Virus record (IMG/VR): IMGVR_UViG_3300030389_000384
Coordinates: 1-23,077 of that record
Direction: 5' to 3' (one strand)
DNA length: 23,077 bases
From: a virus
In this document: positions 5,450 to 17,066 of the stretch, one piece after another
Numbering within the stretch: the stretch's first letter is position 1
Layout of the letters: each line of letters starts with the position of its first letter
Program-made: the position numbers and the translations under genes
The notes under the pieces: model-generated
Told to the model about the DNA's origin: nothing
Databases searched by the model: none
The model's input: only the letters and a program-made list of their open reading frames with translations

Positions 5450-5755
5450 ATGGCACCAAAGAAGTTTGAAGAGAAATCACAATTCAATGATTTAGATGTT
5501 GACGGAGATGGGACGGTATCAGATCATGAACTTTCTATCGTGCAAGCTCATGATGCTCACAGAAAGTATAAAACTCAAGAACGGATAACCATTGGAACGG
5601 CTATATCAATGCTGGTTTTTACAGTTGCTATGTTTTTATTGCCAGAGTCTCGTATATCTGTTTTGACTGATCTCAGTAATTTATTTTATATTTCAGGCGC
5701 AGGAATTATTAGTGCTTTTTTTGGATTTCAGGCTATGGGAGCTTCAAGAAAATGA
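5450..5755 (+). CDS. EF-hand plus two-TM membrane protein
   Basis: A 101-aa protein that joins a calcium-binding loop to a membrane hairpin. Residues 16-27 read DVDGDGTVSDHE, a complete 12-residue EF-hand loop (Asp at 1, 3 and 5, Gly at 6, Val at 8, Glu at 12). Two hydrophobic helices follow, at about 46-64 (TIGTAISMLVFTVAMFLLP) and 78-96 (LFYISGAGIISAFFGFQAM). A strong AGGAGG precedes the ATG. The two-helix form and the location a few hundred bases upstream of the holin suggest a holin, antiholin or other membrane regulator. Calcium binding is predicted from the loop alone; single EF loops also occur in dockerin-like and structural contexts. Confidence 0.8.
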   Translation: MAPKKFEEKSQFNDLDVDGDGTVSDHELSIVQAHDAHRKYKTQERITIGTAISMLVFTVAMFLLPESRISVLTDLSNLFYISGAGIISAFFGFQAMGASRK

Positions 5756-5952
5756 TGTCAAGCATTGGTTTCAATAAAGTCGGTATTCTTAAAGATGAGA
5801 TTGAAATATTAAAAGCAAGGGCAGAGAAAGAGGGTGGCGGCATGGGTCACTTCTGGACAACAATAAGTGTCTTGGAGGGTCGCATTAAAGAAATCGAAGA
5901 AGAGTTTGATAATACTCTGGAGGGCACACGTTACTCATATAGGAACGTATAA
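5752..5952 (+). CDS. Small charged coiled-coil protein
   Basis: A 66-aa protein of unknown function, coupled to the EF-hand gene by ATGA overlap. The next in-frame ATG, three bases later, is an alternative start. The sequence alternates hydrophobic and charged residues (ILKDEIEILKARAEKEG, then VLEGRIKEIEEEF), which predicts two short amphipathic helices able to pair as a coiled coil. There is no signal peptide or membrane helix. It is coupled by TAATG to the holin gene, so it could be a cytoplasmic partner of the membrane proteins on either side; this is contextual inference only. Confidence 0.7.
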   Translation: MMSSIGFNKVGILKDEIEILKARAEKEGGGMGHFWTTISVLEGRIKEIEEEFDNTLEGTRYSYRNV

Positions 5953-6359
5953 TGATACAGGCACTTTTACCTTCAATACTACCTACAGTTACTAATGTCA
6001 TTGGTCGGTTCTTACCAGAGGATAAGGAGAAAAGAGCGGCGGCTGAAAGAGAAATAGAGAAACAGCTTGCAACGCACCTCGCTCAAATTGATATTGCTCA
6101 ACTTGAAATCAACAAACAGGAAGCGGCTCACAGAAATATTTTTGTTGCGGGCTGGCGACCCTTCATTGGATGGTCGTGCGGATTTGCCATGTGCTATGCG
6201 TACATAATTCAACCAATCACTGTTTTTATACTGGCACAAACAGGTAATCTTGTAGACTTGCCGACACTGGATCTATCTGAAATGATGCCCGTGTTACTCG
6301 GTATGCTCGGATTGGGGGGCTTACGTTCCTTCGAAAAGTATAAGAAAGTATCAAAATGA
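5952..6359 (+). CDS. Holin, GTA-type three-TM family
   Basis: A probable holin, the small membrane protein that permeabilises the inner membrane and releases the endolysin. The 135-aa protein has a hydrophobic N-terminus, a helical Glu/Gln-rich linker (about 24-60), then AGWRPFIGWSCGFAMCYAYI and a following hydrophobic stretch to about residue 95. A third hydrophobic segment lies at about 111-125 and the tail is basic (RSFEKYKKVSK). The 'GWRPFIGW' signature and layout are typical of the gene-transfer-agent holin family (3TM, PF11351 from memory). It is coupled by ATGA overlap to the endolysin gene, the expected partner. Confidence 0.87.
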   Translation: MIQALLPSILPTVTNVIGRFLPEDKEKRAAAEREIEKQLATHLAQIDIAQLEINKQEAAHRNIFVAGWRPFIGWSCGFAMCYAYIIQPITVFILAQTGNLVDLPTLDLSEMMPVLLGMLGLGGLRSFEKYKKVSK

Positions 6360-6865
6360 GGGATAATTTTGTAGAATCTTTACACCATGTTCTTAAATCG
6401 GAAGGTGGTTTTGTGAACCACCCTGACGATCCGGGGGGCATTACTAATAAAGGAATTACTGCACGTACTTATACTAATTTTTTAGGGAGACCTGTTGATG
6501 AACAGATGATGCGGGATATTCCTGACAACCATGTTGAAGAAATTTATAAAGAATTATATTGGGAAGTAATTCAAGGGGATGATTTACCCTCTGGGATTGA
6601 CCTATGTGTTTTTGATTTTGGAGTAAATGCCGGTCCTGTCCGCTCTGCTAAAATGCTTCAGTCGTGTGTTAGCGCTACGGAGGACGGTGTTATTGGACCT
6701 AAAACGCTTGCACTTGTTGCAGATCAGGACACGCAGGACTTAATTAAATTGTTTTCTGTTAAAAGAGAAGAATATTACAAATCCTTGTCTCATTTTAAAA
6801 CTTTTGGAAAAGGCTGGTTGAATAGAAACGAAAATGTACGTGACACGGCAATAGATATGGTATAA
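6356..6865 (+). CDS. Endolysin, GH108 N-acetylmuramidase
   Basis: A peptidoglycan-cleaving lysis enzyme. The 169-aa protein matches the GH108 (DUF847/ZliS) architecture. The N-terminal catalytic domain has the SEGGFVNHPDDPGGITNKGI signature at residues 15-34, with E16 as the expected catalytic acid and the conserved D25-P-G-G-T-N-K-G block. The central FDFGVNAG (86-93) and the C-terminal peptidoglycan-binding-3-like part with DGVIGPKT (110-117) and FGKGWLNR (150-157) follow. There is no N-terminal signal or anchor, so release would depend on the holin encoded just upstream with ATGA overlap. All key residues are intact. It is the last gene of the lysis cassette. Confidence 0.95.
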   Translation: MRDNFVESLHHVLKSEGGFVNHPDDPGGITNKGITARTYTNFLGRPVDEQMMRDIPDNHVEEIYKELYWEVIQGDDLPSGIDLCVFDFGVNAGPVRSAKMLQSCVSATEDGVIGPKTLALVADQDTQDLIKLFSVKREEYYKSLSHFKTFGKGWLNRNENVRDTAIDMV

Positions 6866-6900: not shown

Positions 6901-7095
6901 GTGCAGATTTCTCTTGCGGAAGCAGTTTTTCGCATTATAAATATACGACGTAGCGAAATTTCTGACATGTTGATGTATGGAAATGTTCGCAACATGGAAC
7001 AATATCGTGAACTCATGGGCGTATTAGACGGTCTGGGTCATGTGGAACAGGAACTCAAGGGCCTGCTAGAAAAACAGGAGCAAAATGATGACTAG
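6901..7095 (+). CDS. Small conserved phage protein (GTG start)
   Basis: A 64-aa protein of unknown function starting at a GTG with GGAG ten bases upstream. It contains RSEISDMLMYGNVRNMEQYRELMGVLDGL followed by an acidic helical end. I recall this motif from many small proteins encoded near structural genes of marine phages, which supports it being real. No membrane segment is present. It overlaps the groES-like gene by several bases, suggesting coupled expression and perhaps a head-assembly role. The helix-rich, amphipathic pattern fits a small protein-protein interaction module. Confidence 0.8.
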   Translation: MQISLAEAVFRIINIRRSEISDMLMYGNVRNMEQYRELMGVLDGLGHVEQELKGLLEKQEQNDD

Positions 7096-7540
7096 CGTTG
7101 ACGCTGTAGATTTAAAAGCAGCAGAAGAGGGGACCGCATCCCTTAAAGAAGTATACAAAGAACCCGGAGATAGGGTTCTTGATCCTAGTATAATAGGTAA
7201 GTCCTTATTGGAAAGAATACCTACTCCAACAGGATGGCGCATTCTTATTTTACCATATCGCGGAAAAGGTAAAACAGAGGGTGGAATTTACCTACCAGAC
7301 AAAATTGTTGAGGAGCACACTGTATCTACACAAGTTGGATACGTGTTGAAAGTTGGGAATTTAGCATATAAGGACCCGGAAAAATTTCCAGACGGCCCTT
7401 GGTGTAAGAAAGGTGATTGGGTGATGTTCGCTCGGTACTCCGGTTCTCGATTTAAAATAGATGGCGGAGAGGTTCGTATTTTAAATGATGATGAAATACT
7501 GGCTTGTGTGCTTGATCCTGAAGACGTTTTGCATGGTTAG
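7088..7540 (+). CDS. groES: Phage co-chaperonin, GroES-like
   Basis: A probable Cpn10-family lid for the GroEL folding chamber. After a divergent N-terminal extension of about 48 residues, the GroES core runs from PTGWRILILPYRGKG through the mobile-loop region (EGGIYLPDKI, then STQVGYVLKVGNLAY) to KKGDWVMFARYSGSRFKIDG and RILNDDEILACV. The roof segment carries an insertion (KDPEKFPDGPW) not found in short bacterial GroES. Two tandem ATGs are possible starts (7085 and 7088). I prefer the second because its spacing from AGGAG is 7 rather than 4 bases. No groEL lies in the window, so it would act with host GroEL, as T4 gp31 does for its capsid protein. It sits directly before the scaffold and capsid genes. 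Confidence 0.9.
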   Translation: MTSVDAVDLKAAEEGTASLKEVYKEPGDRVLDPSIIGKSLLERIPTPTGWRILILPYRGKGKTEGGIYLPDKIVEEHTVSTQVGYVLKVGNLAYKDPEKFPDGPWCKKGDWVMFARYSGSRFKIDGGEVRILNDDEILACVLDPEDVLHG

Positions 7541-7550
7541 GAGATTTTAA

Positions 7551-8408
7551 ATGGCAGAAGAAGACGTTGTTGAAGAAACAGAAGTAGAAACAGAGGTAGT
7601 CGTTCCAGATGAACCCCAAGGGGAGCTAAATTTGGAATCCTCTAGTGAAGATAATTTTGAGAAAGCGGAAAACACTGTTCAAAAACGCATAAATCGTCTT
7701 ACAAAGAAGATGAGAGACGCAGAAAGGGACCGTGAAGAGGCTATTCAATACGCAAAACAGATTCACCAAGAGGCTGAAAACCTCAAAACCCGTCTTTCCG
7801 CTATGGACACAGGTTATTTAAACGAATCAAGTGCCCGTGTTTCTAGTGAGTTACAGGGTGCAGAGGCAAATCTTAAAGCTGCAATGGAAATAGGTGACAC
7901 TGAAGCAGCGGTAGCGGCTCAAAAACAAATAACACAGCTTGCTATACAAAATGATCGAGTAGAACAAGCAAAAATGCAACAGGCTCGGTATCAGCAACAG
8001 ATGCAGGCACAGCCTCAAGCACAGCCTCAAGCACAACAACCTGTTCAACCCCCAAAAGTTGATCGAAAAGCTCAAGATTGGGCTCAAGATAACGATTGGT
8101 TTGGAGAAGATGAGGCCATGACATATGCGGCTTTTGGTATTCACAAAAAATTAGTTGAACAAGAAGGGTTTGACCCTTCGTCAGATGATTACTATACTGA
8201 ACTTGACCAACGTATGAAAAAAGAGTTTCCTCATAAGTTGGGCAACTCCGGTGGAGGCAAGCGACCCGCTCAGACGGTTGCCTCTGTTAACCGCTCTAGC
8301 TCTGGGCGCACCAGTGGGAAGAAAGTCAGGCTTAGTCAACGTCAAGTCGATATGGCTAGAAGGTTGAATGTTCCTGTCGAAGAGTACGCTAAATACGTGA
8401 AAGGGTGA
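7551..8408 (+). CDS. Capsid scaffolding protein
   Basis: A 285-aa internal assembly scaffold for the prohead. The N-terminus is very acidic (residues 1-35 rich in Glu, Val and Asp). A long charged helical or coiled-coil region spans about 37-150 (QKRINRLTKKMRDAERDREEA and onward). A Gln/Pro/Ala linker follows near 150-168, with short imperfect repeats of QAQPQAQ. The C-terminus is basic (RTSGKKVRLSQRQVDMARRLN), as in scaffolds that touch the capsid shell through a basic helix. AGGAGA precedes the ATG. Position upstream of the capsid gene and composition make the call; scaffolds are poorly conserved, so family assignment is not possible. Confidence 0.85.
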   Translation: MAEEDVVEETEVETEVVVPDEPQGELNLESSSEDNFEKAENTVQKRINRLTKKMRDAERDREEAIQYAKQIHQEAENLKTRLSAMDTGYLNESSARVSSELQGAEANLKAAMEIGDTEAAVAAQKQITQLAIQNDRVEQAKMQQARYQQQMQAQPQAQPQAQQPVQPPKVDRKAQDWAQDNDWFGEDEAMTYAAFGIHKKLVEQEGFDPSSDDYYTELDQRMKKEFPHKLGNSGGGKRPAQTVASVNRSSSGRTSGKKVRLSQRQVDMARRLNVPVEEYAKYVKG

Positions 8409-8414
8409 TTTGAT

Positions 8415-8897
8415 ATGACGCAAGACAACAAAATTGAAGGCGGTATAGCTCGCGCCCCTCGCGCAAACAAGACAAGGGAGAAAACGGCTAGGCGTAAGCC
8501 GTGGGCTCCTCCATCTATGTTAGATGCACCACCCGCGCCGGATGGCTACGTTCATCGTTGGATACGGGCTGAAACCCGTGGTTTTGACGACACAAAGAAC
8601 ATCAGCGCACGGTTGCGAGAAGGATGGGAACTGGTTCGTAAGGATGAGTTTCCTGACTTTGAAGCACCTGTTGTTGAATCGGGTAAGTATGAAGGTGTGT
8701 TTGGTATTGGTGGTCTTATGCTCGCCAGAATACCTGAAGAGACGGTTGAAGAACGGACAGAGTACTTCCGTAATAGAACCTCTGACCAGATGTTGGCTGT
8801 TGACTCAGATATGATGCGCGAGAACGCACACTCTACTATGACGATTAGTAACCCTGATCGTCAATCTCGTGTAACCTTTGGCGGCACTACGAAATAG
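8415..8897 (+). CDS. Conserved head-module protein
   Basis: A 160-aa protein of unknown function between scaffold and capsid genes. The N-terminus is basic and Pro/Arg-rich (residues 10-40). The core has GYVHRWIRAETRGFDDTKNI, then LREGWELVRKDEFPDFEAPV and a Gly-rich KYEGVFGIGGLMLARIPEET. The acidic DSDMMRENAHSTMTIS precedes a basic end with SRVTFGG. I recall this organisation from marine phage head modules, where it is listed as a virion-associated or hypothetical protein. No membrane segment is present. It lies 6 bp after the scaffold gene and 18 bp before the next head gene, so it is presumably a head-assembly or minor head protein. Confidence 0.8.
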   Translation: MTQDNKIEGGIARAPRANKTREKTARRKPWAPPSMLDAPPAPDGYVHRWIRAETRGFDDTKNISARLREGWELVRKDEFPDFEAPVVESGKYEGVFGIGGLMLARIPEETVEERTEYFRNRTSDQMLAVDSDMMRENAHSTMTISNPDRQSRVTFGGTTK

Positions 8898-8915: not shown

Positions 8916-9563
8916 ATGGCAAACCAAGATACTGCCTTCGGTCTTCGTCCTATAGGTCTCAATGGTGCAGGAGCTAATACCACTGGTGTAACTCAATATG
9001 AGATTGCAAGCGATAACACTAACCCTATCTTTCAAAACTCCCCAGTAATTCCTCTGGCGGCTGGTGTAATTGATATTGTTGGTGCAGCAAACGGTGGCAC
9101 GGTTCCCGCTCTTGGTGTCCTTATGGGCGTTGAATATGTAGATAGTTCCTCTAAGAAGACTGTCTTCAAAAACTTCTGGCCCGGTTCAAACAACGTAAGC
9201 GTTGATACGAATTTCCCTGTCAAGGCTTTTGTTGCGGACAACCCAAACCAGTTGTTCATGGTTGCGGCAGACGAGTCTGTTACAAACCGTGCTACAGCTT
9301 TAGCTGACGTTTTCTCAAACTGTTCGTTGGCTAACGGCACATCTGGTTCAACCAATACTGGAAGATCCACGGCTGAACTAGATATTTCCACCGCCGCTAC
9401 CACGGCAACGCTCTTTATGCGAATTGTTGGATTGTCCACTGATGAGGCCAATCTTGACTTTGATGCTGCGGGCGTAAACTTCGTGGTTCGGTTTAATTTC
9501 CACTTTAACTCGCCAGCATCCGCCTCTGCTTCGCAGACGACGGCTGACTCAACTGGTATTTAA
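8916..9563 (+). CDS. Probable head decoration / structural protein
   Basis: A 215-aa, Ala/Thr/Ser/Asn-rich, beta-type protein without Lys/Arg clusters. It starts MANQDTAFGLRPIGLNGAGA, an opening I recall from structural proteins encoded next to the capsid gene in marine phages. The middle contains VIPLAAGVIDIVGAANGG and ALGVLMGVEYVDSSSKK, and the end is Ser/Ala/Thr-rich. A strong AGGAG precedes the ATG, consistent with high expression. Position immediately upstream of the major capsid gene points to a decoration or shell-stabilising role. The family is not named with confidence. Confidence 0.8.
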   Translation: MANQDTAFGLRPIGLNGAGANTTGVTQYEIASDNTNPIFQNSPVIPLAAGVIDIVGAANGGTVPALGVLMGVEYVDSSSKKTVFKNFWPGSNNVSVDTNFPVKAFVADNPNQLFMVAADESVTNRATALADVFSNCSLANGTSGSTNTGRSTAELDISTAATTATLFMRIVGLSTDEANLDFDAAGVNFVVRFNFHFNSPASASASQTTADSTGI

Positions 9564-9577
9564 GGAGGGTATAGATA

Positions 9578-10483
9578 ATGGCTATTTCTCGCGCACAACT
9601 GGCGAAAGAGCTTGAGCCCGGCCTTAATGCCTTGTTCGGTCTTGAGTATGATCGCTACGAAAATGAACATGCGGAGATCTTTGAAGAAGAGACTTCGGAT
9701 CGTGCATTTGAAGAGGAGGTAATGCTTGGTGGTTTCACCTCGGCACCTGTTAAAGAAGAAGGCACTGCCATCACCTTTGACGATGCTCAGGAGACATACA
9801 CCGCACGTTACACGCATGAGACAATCGCTCTTGCGTTTTCGATCACTGAAGAGGCGATTGAAGATAATCTTTATGATCGTCTTGCCGCTCGATACACCAA
9901 GGCTTTGGCTCGCTCAATGGCTCAGACCAAGCAAATCAAAGCTGCGGCTATCTTGAACAACGCTTTCGATACCACTGCACCGATAGGTGATGGTGCCTCG
10001 CTTTGTTCTTCGGCACACCCCTCTTTGTCTGGTAACCAAAGAAACCAGCTATCAGTAGCAGCAGACCTCAATGAGACCTCTCTTGAGCAAATGCTTATTG
10101 ATATTGCGGGTATCACTGACGAACGTGGCCTTAAGGTTGCTATTCGTGGTGTTAAACTGGTTATTCCGAAAGAGCTTCAGTTCATTGCGGAGCGTTTGTT
10201 AAACTCAGACCTTCGTCCGGGAACAGCAGACAACGACACTAACGCTAATAGAAGCATGGGTATGCTTCCAGAAGGTGCCGTTGTAAACCACTTCCTGACA
10301 GATACTGATGCTTATTTCATCCTGACAGATGCGCCAAACGGTTTTAAAATGTTTAACCGTTCGCCCATCAAGACGGCAATGGAAGGTGACTTCGACACAG
10401 GAAACATGAGATTCAAAGCTCGTGAGCGTTACAGCTTTGGTGTTTCTGACTGGAGATCAGTTTTCGGCACTGCCGGAGCATAG
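9578..10483 (+). CDS. Major capsid protein, Mu gpT-like
   Basis: The main shell protein of the head. At 301 aa it is close to Mu gpT (about 305 aa). Diagnostic stretches include FGLEYDRYENEHAEIFEEET near residue 20, SITEEAIEDNLYDRLAARYT, LCSSAHPSLSGNQRN (a loop seen in Mu-like capsid proteins), LVIPKELQFIAERLL and a C-terminal RFKARERYSFGVSDWRSVFG. The fold expected is HK97-like. AGGAGGG gives a strong ribosome site and the gene is followed closely by a strong intrinsic terminator, both consistent with very high expression. No N-terminal delta domain or protease gene is seen. The capsid call is very secure, the gpT family somewhat less. Confidence 0.94.
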   Translation: MAISRAQLAKELEPGLNALFGLEYDRYENEHAEIFEEETSDRAFEEEVMLGGFTSAPVKEEGTAITFDDAQETYTARYTHETIALAFSITEEAIEDNLYDRLAARYTKALARSMAQTKQIKAAAILNNAFDTTAPIGDGASLCSSAHPSLSGNQRNQLSVAADLNETSLEQMLIDIAGITDERGLKVAIRGVKLVIPKELQFIAERLLNSDLRPGTADNDTNANRSMGMLPEGAVVNHFLTDTDAYFILTDAPNGFKMFNRSPIKTAMEGDFDTGNMRFKARERYSFGVSDWRSVFGTAGA

Positions 10484-13897: not shown

Positions 13898-14069
13898 AAG
13901 ACCCGTAAAGATGCGTGGTGGTGGAATGGCTAAAAAGCCTGTAGGAATGCGTGGTGGTGGAATGGCTAAAAAGCCTGATATGATGAAAAAGGGCGGAAAA
14001 GCTATGACCTTGGCGCAGATCCGCAAAGCAGCCAACGCAAAAGGTTTTAAGCTAGTTAAGATGGCGTAA
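13878..14069 (+). CDS. Gly/Lys/Met-rich repeat protein (63 aa)
   Basis: A 63-aa protein starting at ATG 13878, with AGGAGA seven bases upstream. I prefer this to an in-frame ATG further upstream that would overlap the preceding gene heavily and has no ribosome site. It carries two copies of MRGGGMAKKP in a 12-residue period, then MMKKGGKAMTLAQIRKAANA, which looks like a small helical domain, ending KGFKLVKMA. The repeat belongs to the same RG-x-G-x-A-x-K pattern seen in other small proteins here. It is coupled by TAATG to the connector gene. Function unknown. Confidence 0.7.
   Translation: MAMKPRKRPVKMRGGGMAKKPVGMRGGGMAKKPDMMKKGGKAMTLAQIRKAANAKGFKLVKMA
13911..13977 (+). repeat. Two-copy 36-bp period tandem repeat
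   Basis: A 31-bp unit at 13911-13941 recurs exactly at 13947-13977 (36-bp period, 12 codons) and encodes MRGGGMAKKP twice. The exact DNA identity implies a recent duplication within the gene, or replication slippage. Confidence 0.95.
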
Positions 14070-14737
14070 TGACCACTTCAGGAAGCACAGATTTTGAGCT
14101 AAACGTCGCTGATTATGTAGAAGAGGCGTTTGAACGGTGCGGTTTGGAGGTTCGTACAGGTTACGACCTCCAGACTACGCGCCGTTCTCTTAATATTCTG
14201 TTTGCGGACTGGGCTAATCGTGGTCTTAATCAATGGACTATCGAACAACGAACACAGGCTCTTACTGCTGCTGACGGAGAATATTCTATAGGAACAGATG
14301 TTATAGATATTCTGTCCGCCGTGGTTCGTCGCAGTAACACCGACTTTGCTTTAGACCGACTTAGCAGGAGTGAGTTTTTAAATATTCCTACTAAAACAAC
14401 TCAGGGACGCCCTAATCAATTTTTTTTAGATAGGCAGATAACGCCTAACCTTAAAATATGGCCTGTTCCTGAAAACAGCACTGACACTGTTATCTATGAT
14501 GCTTTAACGAGGATACAAGACGCGGATACCCCGACAAATACGGTTGAGGTTCCCTTCAGGTTTTACCCATGTCTTGCTGCGGGATTAGCTTATTATCTTT
14601 CTATGAAAAGAGCACCCGACAGGGTTCAACTTTTAAAAGCTGTTTACGAAGAAGAGTTTGAGCGAGCCGCCACAGAGGATAGAGACAGGGCTTCGTATAA
14701 TGTTGTTCCACAGTATCAATATTTTAAGACAAACTAA
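14069..14737 (+). CDS. Head-to-tail connector, P22 gp4-like
   Basis: A 222-aa probable connector that seals the portal after packaging and starts the tail. The N-terminal helical part, DYVEEAFERCGLEVRTGYDL followed by RRSLNILFADWANRGLNQWT, resembles the helical fold of P22 gp4-type tail accessory factors, where a bundle of helices binds beneath the portal. A beta region with DIL and KIWPVPENSTDTVIYDALTR follows, then the helical VPFRFYPCLAAGLAYYLSMK and an Arg/Glu-rich C-terminal helix. TAATG coupling links it to both neighbours. The functional class is inferred from helix pattern, gene order and memory of similar genes; sequence similarity to P22 gp4 itself is weak. Confidence 0.78.
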   Translation: MTTSGSTDFELNVADYVEEAFERCGLEVRTGYDLQTTRRSLNILFADWANRGLNQWTIEQRTQALTAADGEYSIGTDVIDILSAVVRRSNTDFALDRLSRSEFLNIPTKTTQGRPNQFFLDRQITPNLKIWPVPENSTDTVIYDALTRIQDADTPTNTVEVPFRFYPCLAAGLAYYLSMKRAPDRVQLLKAVYEEEFERAATEDRDRASYNVVPQYQYFKTN

Positions 14738-15039: not shown

Positions 15040-15687
15040 ATGAGCTTTACATTTGCACAGCTAAAAACAGCCATACAGGATTTTACTGAGAATACAGAAA
15101 CATCCTTTGTGAACAATCTTCCTGTTTTTATACGAGCAGCAGAAGATAGGATTTTAGGTCTTGTAGACTTAGAGTATTTTAGAAAAAACGTCACAGGTGT
15201 TATGAGTAGTGGTGATAAGTTTCTAAACGCTCCAGATGATTATTTAGCTTCCTTTTCTCTCTCCATAGAAGTATCTAGTAGCAAAGTTTTTTTGTTGCAA
15301 AAAGATGTAAACTTTATTCAAGAGTATAACCCAAACGGCTCTACTACAGGACAACCTGTATATTATGCGTTGTTTGACGTAGATAATTTTATTATAGCTC
15401 CCACACCAGACGCAAATTATTCCAGTGAACTTCATTATTTTTTTAGACCCGCTAGTCTAACCGCAGGAGCGGATAGTGGGACTACTTGGATAAGTACAAA
15501 TGCCCCAAACACTATTTTATACGCCTCTTTAGTAGAGGCATATACCTACATGAAAGGCGAGCCGGATCTTTTAACCCTTTATAATAATAGGTTTACGGAG
15601 GCTTTACAGAGGCTTAAAGATTTGGCCGAAGCTCGTGAAAACAGTGACGCTTATCGTGATGGTTTACCAAGAAGGCCCAGAACATAA
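15040..15687 (+). CDS. Head-tail adaptor protein (SU10 adaptor-like)
   Basis: A 215-aa probable neck adaptor. It opens with the helix MSFTFAQLKTAIQDFTENTE, then NNLPVFIRAAEDRILGLVDL, a pattern I recognise from the adaptor family of short-tailed phages such as SU10 (DUF/PF name from memory: SU10_adaptor). A beta domain with NAPDDYLASFSLSIE and QPVYYALFDVDNFIIAPTPD follows. The helical end is SLVEAYTYMKGEPDLLTLYN, and the final Arg-rich segment is DGLPRRPRT. Such adaptors form a 12-fold ring below the portal. It is coupled by TAATG to the next gene. Confidence 0.85.
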   Translation: MSFTFAQLKTAIQDFTENTETSFVNNLPVFIRAAEDRILGLVDLEYFRKNVTGVMSSGDKFLNAPDDYLASFSLSIEVSSSKVFLLQKDVNFIQEYNPNGSTTGQPVYYALFDVDNFIIAPTPDANYSSELHYFFRPASLTAGADSGTTWISTNAPNTILYASLVEAYTYMKGEPDLLTLYNNRFTEALQRLKDLAEARENSDAYRDGLPRRPRT

Positions 15688-15981: not shown

Positions 15982-16413
15982 ATGTCTATCACTCAAGCAA
16001 TGTGTACAAGTTTTAAAAAGGAACTGCTTGAAGCCAAGCATAATTTTCTTAATTCTGGTGGGAGCACTTTTAAACTAGCCTTATACACTAGCAGTGCTAG
16101 TTTAGATGCAGCTACTACAGCTTACACAACAAGTAACGAGGTGTCGGGCACTGGGTACACGGCTAAAGGGAACACGCTTACAAGAGTAAATCCCTCTACC
16201 AGTGGAACCACGGCATTAACTGATTTTGCAGACACCACATTTAGTAGTTCGACCATAACAGCTAGAGGTGCTTTAATATTTAATGAGGATACGTCGGGGG
16301 ACACTTCTGTATGTGTGCTTGATTTTGGTGCGGATAAATCAAGCTCATCTGGAGATTTTACAATTACTTTTCCGACGGCTGATGCGTCGTCCGCGATAAT
16401 TAGAATAGCTTAA
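15982..16413 (+). CDS. Putative beta-rich tail/virion protein
   Basis: A 143-aa Ser/Thr/Ala-rich protein. The N-terminal helical stretch AMCTSFKKELLEAKHNFLNS is followed by STFKLALYTSSASLDAATTA and a long beta-rich part ending FTITFPTADASSAIIRIA. The opening 'MCTSFKKELLEAKHNF' is, as I recall, a conserved start of short virion proteins next to the fibre genes of marine phages. Function unknown; the strand pattern fits a surface or tail component. It is coupled by TAATG to the repeat protein at 16413. Confidence 0.78.
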   Translation: MSITQAMCTSFKKELLEAKHNFLNSGGSTFKLALYTSSASLDAATTAYTTSNEVSGTGYTAKGNTLTRVNPSTSGTTALTDFADTTFSSSTITARGALIFNEDTSGDTSVCVLDFGADKSSSSGDFTITFPTADASSAIIRIA

Positions 16414-17066
16414 TGACTGATGTAATTGTAGCATTTGAGGGATGGAACTCCTCTACCCAATCATGGGGAGAAGCGGGTTGGGGGCAGGATGTTTCTGTTC
16501 CCGGTGCTACAGCAGGGTTAGGAAGCGTTACAGTATCGGCTGATGCTAATGTTTCTGCTACAGGGGTAGAGGGAACTGGTTCCCTTGGTTCTGTCACAGT
16601 ATTAACGGGTGTTAATATTACCGTTACAGGGGTGGCAGGCACAACTTCTTTGGGAACAGTTGCTGTTACAGGTGATGCTAATATTTCTGCTACAGGGGTA
16701 GCAGGCACTTCTGAGCTAGGTTCTGTTACAATAGTAATTGACGCTAGTACCGCTGCTACAGGGGTAGCAGGCACTGGCACTGTTGGGTCTGTTACCGTAG
16801 TTGAAGGGCAAGGTGTAGTTGTTGAGGCTACTGGTGTTTCTGCTACAGGAGAAACGTCAAGTGTAAATATCTGGGGGTTAATAACACCAAGTCAAGAACC
16901 CAGTTGGTCTGTAATAAGTCCTGACCAGACGCCCAGTTGGTCTGTAATAAGTCCTGACCAGACGCCCAGTTGGTCTGTAATAAGTCCTGACCAGACGCCC
17001 AGTTGGTCCGGTATAACACCAAGTCAAACACCTAATTGGCAAGAAACAAGGCGTGAGGCTGCTTAA
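16413..17066 (+). CDS. Two-repeat-type virion protein (tail/fibre-associated)
   Basis: A 217-aa protein made of two different repeats. After an N-terminal Trp-rich part (WNSSTQSWGEAGWGQDVSVP), residues 35-146 hold about five copies of a 22-residue unit of the form LGSVTV..DANVSATGVAGT. Residues 157-209 hold five copies of an 11-residue unit of the form SVISPDQTPSW, three of them identical in DNA. Repeated short beta strands suggest an extended, probably surface-exposed, solenoid-like or adhesive element. Position before the fibre gene and marine-phage parallels in memory support a tail component. The exact role is unknown, and repeat number could vary between relatives. Confidence 0.85.
   Translation: MTDVIVAFEGWNSSTQSWGEAGWGQDVSVPGATAGLGSVTVSADANVSATGVEGTGSLGSVTVLTGVNITVTGVAGTTSLGTVAVTGDANISATGVAGTSELGSVTIVIDASTAATGVAGTGTVGSVTVVEGQGVVVEATGVSATGETSSVNIWGLITPSQEPSWSVISPDQTPSWSVISPDQTPSWSVISPDQTPSWSGITPSQTPNWQETRREAA
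16515..16850 (+). repeat. Degenerate 66-bp repeats encoding 22-aa units
   Basis: Four full units of 22 residues (residues 35-56, 57-78, 79-100 and 101-122 of the host gene) and a fifth longer unit share 'LG[ST]V[TA]V ... ATGVAGT'. Short DNA runs such as 'gctacaggggtagcaggcac' recur, but the copies are otherwise diverged, in contrast to the exact repeats further down the gene. Confidence 0.9.
16899..17008 (+). repeat. Three exact 33-bp tandem repeats
   Basis: Units at 16899-16931, 16932-16964 and 16965-16997 are identical and are followed by a partial fourth copy to 17008. They encode repeats of PSWSVISPDQT. Two more diverged 11-aa units flank them, so five occur in the protein. Exact identity points to recent expansion by slippage or recombination. 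Confidence 0.95.

Follow-up and report, generated by a model that had tools for sequence, protein, structure and literature searches.

A co-chaperonin of the GroES family that accompanies the major capsid gene in HTVC023P-type phages and their relatives

Phages T4 and RB49 encode co-chaperonins, gp31 and CocO, that replace GroES on the GroEL of the host (PMC3012670, PMC6318259), and folding of the T4 capsid protein gp23 requires gp31 on host GroEL (PMC3012670). The accessible text of PMC6318259 gives the length of the gp31 mobile loop as 22 residues, compared with 16 in GroES, and describes a cage that is 8% larger. Phages EL and OBP also carry their own folding aid, but in the form of Cpn60 chambers, which the accessible part of PMC5934643 describes as needing no co-chaperonin.

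GroES genes are already known and annotated in phages closer to the locus described here. GroES is listed among the 13 core genes of 82 HTVC023P-type pelagiphages (accessible text of PMC9599517), and is marked in a figure legend of the paper on CRP-901 and CRP-902 (PMC10149686). PMC6487183 counts it with the structural proteins encoded in viral genomic islands. PMC4490671 and PMC11053796 contain no mention of it. Several relatives have a co-chaperonin GroES annotated in GenBank. The GroES proteins of HTVC023P, HTVC027P and DSL-LC04 belong to the same family as the one studied here and share its place in the head cassette, an N-terminal extension, a mobile loop with four additional residues and a similar roof motif, but differ from it in sequence, being 44-59% identical within the tblastn alignments (HTVC023P, 44% over 99% of the query; HTVC027P, 59% over 72% of the query). 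The gene is therefore ordinary in kind and belongs to the HTVC023P-type group.

The DNA analysed, referred to as the window, is the whole of a 23,077-nucleotide stretch of viral DNA (IMG/VR record IMGVR_UViG_3300030389_000384). Whereas groES of E. coli adjoins groEL, groES of the window sits in the head cassette, where the order is terminase, portal, small genes, holin, endolysin, a 64-aa ORF, groES, a scaffold-like ORF, two conserved ORFs and the major capsid gene. The features from the 64-aa ORF onwards are as follows.

6901-7095, plus strand: ORF of 64 aa that overlaps the start of groES (phrog_32603, no function given)
7076-7080, plus strand: AGGAG, the ribosome-binding site of groES as read from the sequence, lying within the last part of the small gene that precedes groES
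7088-7540, plus strand: groES/Cpn10 gene, co-chaperonin of 150 aa (Pfam PF00166, 7.3e-12; PHROG 3188, 2.2e-18; fold Z 10.8)
7551-8408, plus strand: scaffold-like ORF of 285 aa, directly downstream of groES (phrog_28737, no function given)
8415-8897, plus strand: conserved head-cassette ORF of 160 aa (phrog_36003, no function given)
8916-9563, plus strand: conserved head-cassette ORF of 215 aa (phrog_37556, no function given)
9578-10483, plus strand: major capsid protein of 301 aa and 33.1 kDa, the proposed client (Pfam Phage_capsid_4, 2.3e-15)

The ORF at 7088-7540 is intact, with 150 codons, and is a genuine member of the Cpn10/GroES family. Its match to the Pfam Cpn10 profile reached 45.6 bits (cut-off 21.1) and covered positions 3-92 of 93, and PHROG 3188, which it also matched, is the co-chaperonin GroES group. 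Both the AGGAG motif and the alignment of relatives favour 7088 as the start, as most close relatives begin in the same column and have a similar motif. A single-chain AlphaFold model (mean pLDDT 76, pTM 0.64), made from 38 aligned sequences, contained the GroES beta-barrel fold. The core GroES elements recognised in an initial annotation made from the sequence are thus confirmed, as is its placement of the gene upstream of the scaffold and capsid genes; groES adjoins the scaffold-like ORF (7551), a name that reflects a role suggested by position, and lies four genes before the capsid gene (9578).

When the model was compared with known structures using VIA-align, the highest score was to the bacterial GroES 8wuc_a (Z 10.8, rmsd 3.0, 92 residues aligned). 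E. coli GroES 1aon_O (Z 8.7, rmsd 4.1, 94 aligned) and T4 gp31 (2cgt, Z 8.3, rmsd 1.8, 71 aligned; 1g31, Z 7.7, rmsd 4.7, 83 aligned) were tied to within 1 in Z, both below 8wuc. While these Z values do not decide between gp31 and E. coli GroES, sequence identity in one alignment was 21% to gp31 and 34% to E. coli GroES, which does not indicate closer kinship to gp31 than to bacterial GroES. In the structural alignment, identity to gp31 was 11%.

The sequence sets used for comparison were assembled as follows. A total of 54 non-redundant phage Cpn10 were collected, with that of Caulobacter phage RW falling out because it had no start under the rule used. Ten were removed by hand to leave a family alignment of 44, and this alignment minus six sequences (two with non-ATG starts and four excluded records) was the input to the structure model. 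Length and identity counts were made on 42 of the 44, the window included, after Pag-Yong1 and CRP-902 had been dropped. The host set comprised 34 bacterial GroES, of which 31 belong to the same class as one Pelagibacteraceae genome and three come from other bacteria, and addition of E. coli GroES brought the bacterial sequences to 35. These bacterial proteins share the fold, the Pfam family and a roof stretch of nearly equal length with the window protein, but have no N-terminal extension and a mobile loop that is four residues shorter. The parts of the protein that need to be distinguished are listed below.

7088-7213, plus strand: N-terminal extension of about 42 residues, mostly of low confidence in the model and loosely constrained
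7262-7336, plus strand: residues 59-83, the mobile loop and the turn after it, containing the tripeptide I-Y-L (67-69) and four extra residues
7358-7414, plus strand: roof segment, residues 91-109, with a GPWC motif, in place of the GroES roof hairpin at near-equal length
7511-7537, plus strand: C-terminal extension with a conserved P-E-D-hydrophobic motif, identified from the alignment with E. coli GroES and from family length and identity

The initial annotation had described KDPEKFPDGPW as an insertion in the roof loop. However, the window has 21 residues from G90 through D110, and the corresponding count is 20 for E. coli GroES and for all but one of the 34 hosts. In the phage set it is 21 residues in 33 of 42 members, with a range of 20-29. 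Length across the 42 phage and 34 host sequences rules out an insertion, and the roof hairpin has been substituted instead. Within the substituted tract, Y94, W105, C106 and W111 are invariant in all 42 members of the window lineage, the last three lying within the motif GPWCKKGDW. In the 34 hosts, column 106 is always V, column 105 is always a gap, W111 never occurs and Y94 occurs once. The roof of the model has no regular secondary structure, although block pLDDT is 92-93. In the window lineage, the core, roof and mobile loop had mean pairwise identities of 0.64, 0.62 and 0.46, respectively, compared with 0.68, 0.53 and 0.73 in the hosts. We read the roof of the window lineage as a constrained, substituted tract. 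Its length differs in other lineages, being 24 in RW and 12-17 in 53 of 54 members of the MW202796 lineage, with 5 in the remaining one. T4 gp31 has 13 residues here and is reported, in the accessible text of PMC6318259, to be without the roof loop, whereas the window retains the full stretch.

The N-terminal extension claimed in the initial annotation is real, but its size, given as about 48 residues, had been slightly over-counted. P47 is preceded by 46 residues in the window protein, by 33-74 across the phage set (n=42) and by 3-6 among the hosts (n=34), so that about 42 residues are extra. The extension is a loosely held and variable tail. Mean pairwise identity was 0.18 for residues 1-17 and 0.35 for residues 18-43, block pLDDT for residues 1-30 of the model was 51-59, and pN/pS, pooled over 11 hand-picked close pairs with one sequence used twice, was 0.29 in the extension against 0.05 in the core. 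In Alcaligenes phage QDWS535, MW202796, MW202785 and Pag-Yong1 the extension is short or missing, yet the position of groES is unchanged. A tail that varies, is poorly constrained and is reduced or lacking in several capsid-linked relatives is not what a shared function needs, and enlargement of the chamber by this route can be ruled out as that function.

Two further departures from E. coli GroES had gone unmentioned in the initial annotation. The C-terminus is about seven residues longer and carries a PEDVLH motif, and the mobile loop has four additional residues in its C-terminal half. From G65 to V86, the stretch that runs from the mobile-loop glycines through the next strand, there are 22 residues in all 42 phage sequences and 18 in all 34 hosts and in E. 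coli. Across lineages, 231 of 232 phage sequences could be measured, the remaining one being gapped at an anchor. The stretch was 22 residues in the window lineage (59/59), 22-23 in the RW lineage (77/77), 23 in the MW202796 lineage (54/54) and 21-24 in the Alcaligenes lineage (41/41). Hence all 231 measured capsid-linked phage Cpn10 have 21-24 residues, compared with 18 in each of the 35 bacterial sequences. Elsewhere the value was 18 for vir526, 26 for MW202601 and 19 for T4 gp31. The shared departure from host GroES is thus the long mobile loop, and not the roof or the extension.

A lengthened mobile loop is also a trait of gp31, and the window has it (22 residues against 18 in host GroES). 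The likeness is one of length rather than place, because the extra residues of gp31 lie before the glycines and leave it with 19 in the measured stretch. The longer loop is the one feature that parallels the enlarged cage of gp31. Within the loop, I67-Y68-L69 aligns with I-V-L of E. coli GroES, a tripeptide that we take to be the contact with GroEL. Its first and third positions are hydrophobic in 59/60, 77/77, 54/54 and 38/41 relatives and in 12 of 14 named proteins. To judge from the sequences, the mobile loop drifts, perhaps following the GroEL of the hosts. No earlier description of the long loop, or of the linkage to the capsid gene set out below, was found in the mostly open-access literature searched.

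The succession in which a small ORF precedes groES and three further ORFs separate groES from the capsid gene was also found in DSL-LC04, HTVC027P, Pag-Yong1, CRP-902, RW, HTVC023P, MW202796, MW202785 and MW202545. The last three and MW202675, which has extra small ORFs between groES and the capsid gene, are Manatee Spring genomes. In Caulobacter phage RW, Roseobacter phage CRP-902, Planktothrix phage Pag-Yong1 and Alcaligenes phage QDWS535, a Cpn10 with a long mobile loop likewise lies three ORFs before the capsid gene, but the N-terminal extension is shorter than in the window or lacking and the roof length is 18-24. The scaffold-like ORF was the next gene after groES in 55/55 capsid loci and was detected by phmmer in four of five named phages, as sequence similarity among the neighbours is weaker than the conservation of their order. 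The 64-aa ORF was found beside groES by phmmer in 70/76 IMG/VR loci, 26/29 GTDB contigs and 2/5 named phages, and may belong to the lid module. An ORF of 55-77 aa with weak sequence similarity occupies its place in ten named relatives, and a small, unannotated ORF does so in QDWS535.

Several other features of the window were recorded. Holin and endolysin genes (5952-6865) lie between portal and groES. Matches to the SU10 adaptor family came from two nearby ORFs, at 14069-14737 and 15040-15687, which hints that the adaptor is duplicated, and in the ORF at 16413-17066 an ISPDQTPSWSV-like motif is repeated C-terminally and GVAGT-type units are repeated in the middle. A small ORF at 5450-5755 has hydrophobic stretches (by eye) and an EF-hand-like start, DVDGDGTVS, that scores below the Pfam cut-off.

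The link between groES and the capsid gene is strong. Starting from GroES, the capsid gene was found approximately 2.0-2.3 kb downstream in 54/54 IMG/VR loci (those of 80 GroES loci with at least 3.2 kb downstream), 23/23 GTDB contigs and 5/5 named phages, each counted where the sequence was long enough. Over the same sets, the gap between portal and GroES varied from about 200 to 4,700 bp, and this interval therefore looks like a cargo slot in the head operon. The reverse search used four capsid queries from separate lineages, three of the scans being limited to the best 80 matches, and was restricted to contigs that extend 3.5 kb or more upstream of it (53 of 80, 33 of 50, 73 of 80 and 42 of 80). 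A Cpn10 was present less than 4 kb upstream in 53/53, 33/33, 73/73 and 42/42 of these (201/201), and an HMM made from bacterial GroES alone recovered 52, 29, 66 and 42 of them. The contigs are related and were not dereplicated, representing perhaps a dozen lineages by eye, and the counts thus describe a stable rule within a clade and not hundreds of independent events. In a control, no Cpn10 was found in eight unrelated phages, while T4 gp31 was detected as the positive. A query with E. coli GroES matched 89 of 50,697 phage records, a rough figure that misses divergent proteins and includes some host DNA.

Among annotated phages, tblastn with the window capsid protein yielded 21 records, with identity down to 29%. 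All 21 contain a Cpn10; 17 are in the GroES match list, MW202675 and MW202604 have it annotated, and in BK063670 and MW202601 it was detected by profile. In BK063670, MW202601 and MW202604, the most distant of the capsid records, the Cpn10 is located away from the capsid gene, and the annotated cpn10 of MW202604 is at the same place as that of MW202601. In viruses with such a distant capsid protein, one of them assigned to Methanomicrobiales, the Cpn10 (locus L218, 827-1183, minus strand; locus L219, 2200-2664, plus strand) lies away from the capsid gene, has different loop lengths and was possibly acquired separately. In the vir526-type capsid clade (17 of 20 contigs with at least 3.5 kb upstream), there was no adjacent Cpn10 in any of the 17, and one was found further upstream in three, including one weak match. 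As the vir526 Cpn10 also has a loop of ordinary length, the capsid fold alone does not demand an adjacent lid.

No Cpn60 was found in the 13 related capsid-bearing genomes searched, most of which had been chosen for having GroES. These genomes thus encode the lid only, unlike EL and OBP, and would have to borrow the chaperonin of the host. Two Pelagibacteraceae genomes (G002 and G003; loci L220, L221, L228 and L229) contain an ordinary host GroES together with a phage-type GroES on another contig, as expected for infected cells or a co-binned phage.

We consider it probable, at roughly 0.7, that the phage Cpn10 caps host GroEL with the 33-kDa major capsid protein as its main client. As the gene travels with the capsid gene in related phages, its product probably helps the capsid protein to fold. 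In the proposed scheme, a Cpn10 of the GroES family would be made from within the head-assembly gene cluster, and seven copies, assuming the usual heptamer, would assemble into a lid. Its mobile loops would hold on to host GroEL by means of I67-Y68-L69, by analogy with gp31. The main client would most likely be the capsid protein encoded 2 kb downstream, and the lid of the host would be what limits the folding or yield of that protein. The cage may be tuned to this client by the longer mobile loop and the lineage-specific roof, while the N-terminal extension would be a lineage-specific addition.

The initial annotation had proposed a capsid-specific co-chaperonin like T4 gp31. The linkage (201/201), the presence of Cpn10 in 21/21 capsid records and the lack of Cpn60 in 13 genomes favour the proposal, but the structural reasoning behind it does not stand, as there is no roof insertion. 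Both proteins would be phage lids for host GroEL with a longer mobile loop and a capsid client (accessible text of PMC3012670 and PMC6318259 for gp31 and CocO). T4 gene 23 is absent from the 6.5 kb around gene 31, whereas the window capsid gene is 2 kb downstream of groES. A protein that is gp31-like in role is the best reading, and orthology to gp31 is not implied. No data on GroEL binding or clients of the capsid-linked Cpn10 family were found in the literature searched, part of which was accessible only in part.

Alternatively, the protein may be a general takeover lid, adding GroEL/GroES capacity or favouring many late phage proteins with no special fit to the capsid protein. This appears unlikely. 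The GroES fold and the GroEL tripeptide are retained, and gp31 is reported to stand in for GroES in essential E. coli folding (accessible text of PMC3012670 and PMC6318259), but the location is fixed to the head cassette, where groES keeps a nearly constant spacing from the capsid gene and a variable one from the portal. In addition, the roof is approximately as conserved as the core within the phage lineage and less so in the hosts. Such a pattern is expected if something phage-specific touches the roof, though relatedness could also produce it.

Shared inheritance of a conserved head operon, in which the client may be the scaffold, the portal, one of the two conserved head-cassette ORFs or a tail protein, is less likely again. 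The immediate neighbour of groES is the scaffold-like ORF, and tblastn with the portal yielded 18 records, all within the list of 21 capsid records. As every portal record holds a capsid relative, linkage leaves the capsid protein indistinguishable from a different head protein as the client, and does not set either apart from common ancestry. However, purifying selection on the core is strong (pN/pS 0.05), and Cpn10 accompanies the capsid protein in all 21 records, even in the three where it is encoded elsewhere. It is very improbable that the protein is a structural or assembly component with the Cpn10 fold, anchored in the head by its N-terminal extension and without GroEL function; the long variable extensions and unusual conserved roof would suit such a role, but the hydrophobic first and third positions of the tripeptide and the length of the mobile loop are conserved.

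With the capsid protein as the preferred client, its size bears on the idea, raised in the initial annotation, of a chamber enlarged for a capsid subunit. At 33.1 kDa it is well below gp23 (approximately 56 kDa; accessible text of PMC6318259), and a bigger chamber is not obviously needed. Together with the lack of a roof insertion and the variable, poorly constrained and sometimes absent extension, this leaves enlargement by the roof or the extension unsupported. As a client of this size does not obviously need an enlarged cage, surface fit or the dynamics of the lid would be the source of any specificity.

More tentatively, and at somewhat less than even odds, these capsid-bound co-chaperonins may constitute a broad family of old standing, distinct from gp31 and marked by a mobile loop that is 3-6 residues longer and by residence beside the capsid gene. 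The lid-capsid pair is present in about 200 contigs, and the named phages that carry it include Caulobacter phage RW, Pelagibacter phage HTVC023P and Roseobacter phage CRP-902. T4 gp31 raised the question of client-specific co-chaperonins, and it is complicated by the report that gp31 homologs of similar size prefer their own gp23 (PMC3012670). Here the capsid protein is small enough that cage size should not limit its folding, so size could be separated from surface fit. If the family is as broad as this suggests, it would represent a second route to a capsid-specific lid, one in which the roof was not deleted. The roof would be tuned to a single viral client while the mobile loop drifts with the GroEL of the host, and the family would provide naturally occurring variants with which to study how the choice of client depends on the lid.
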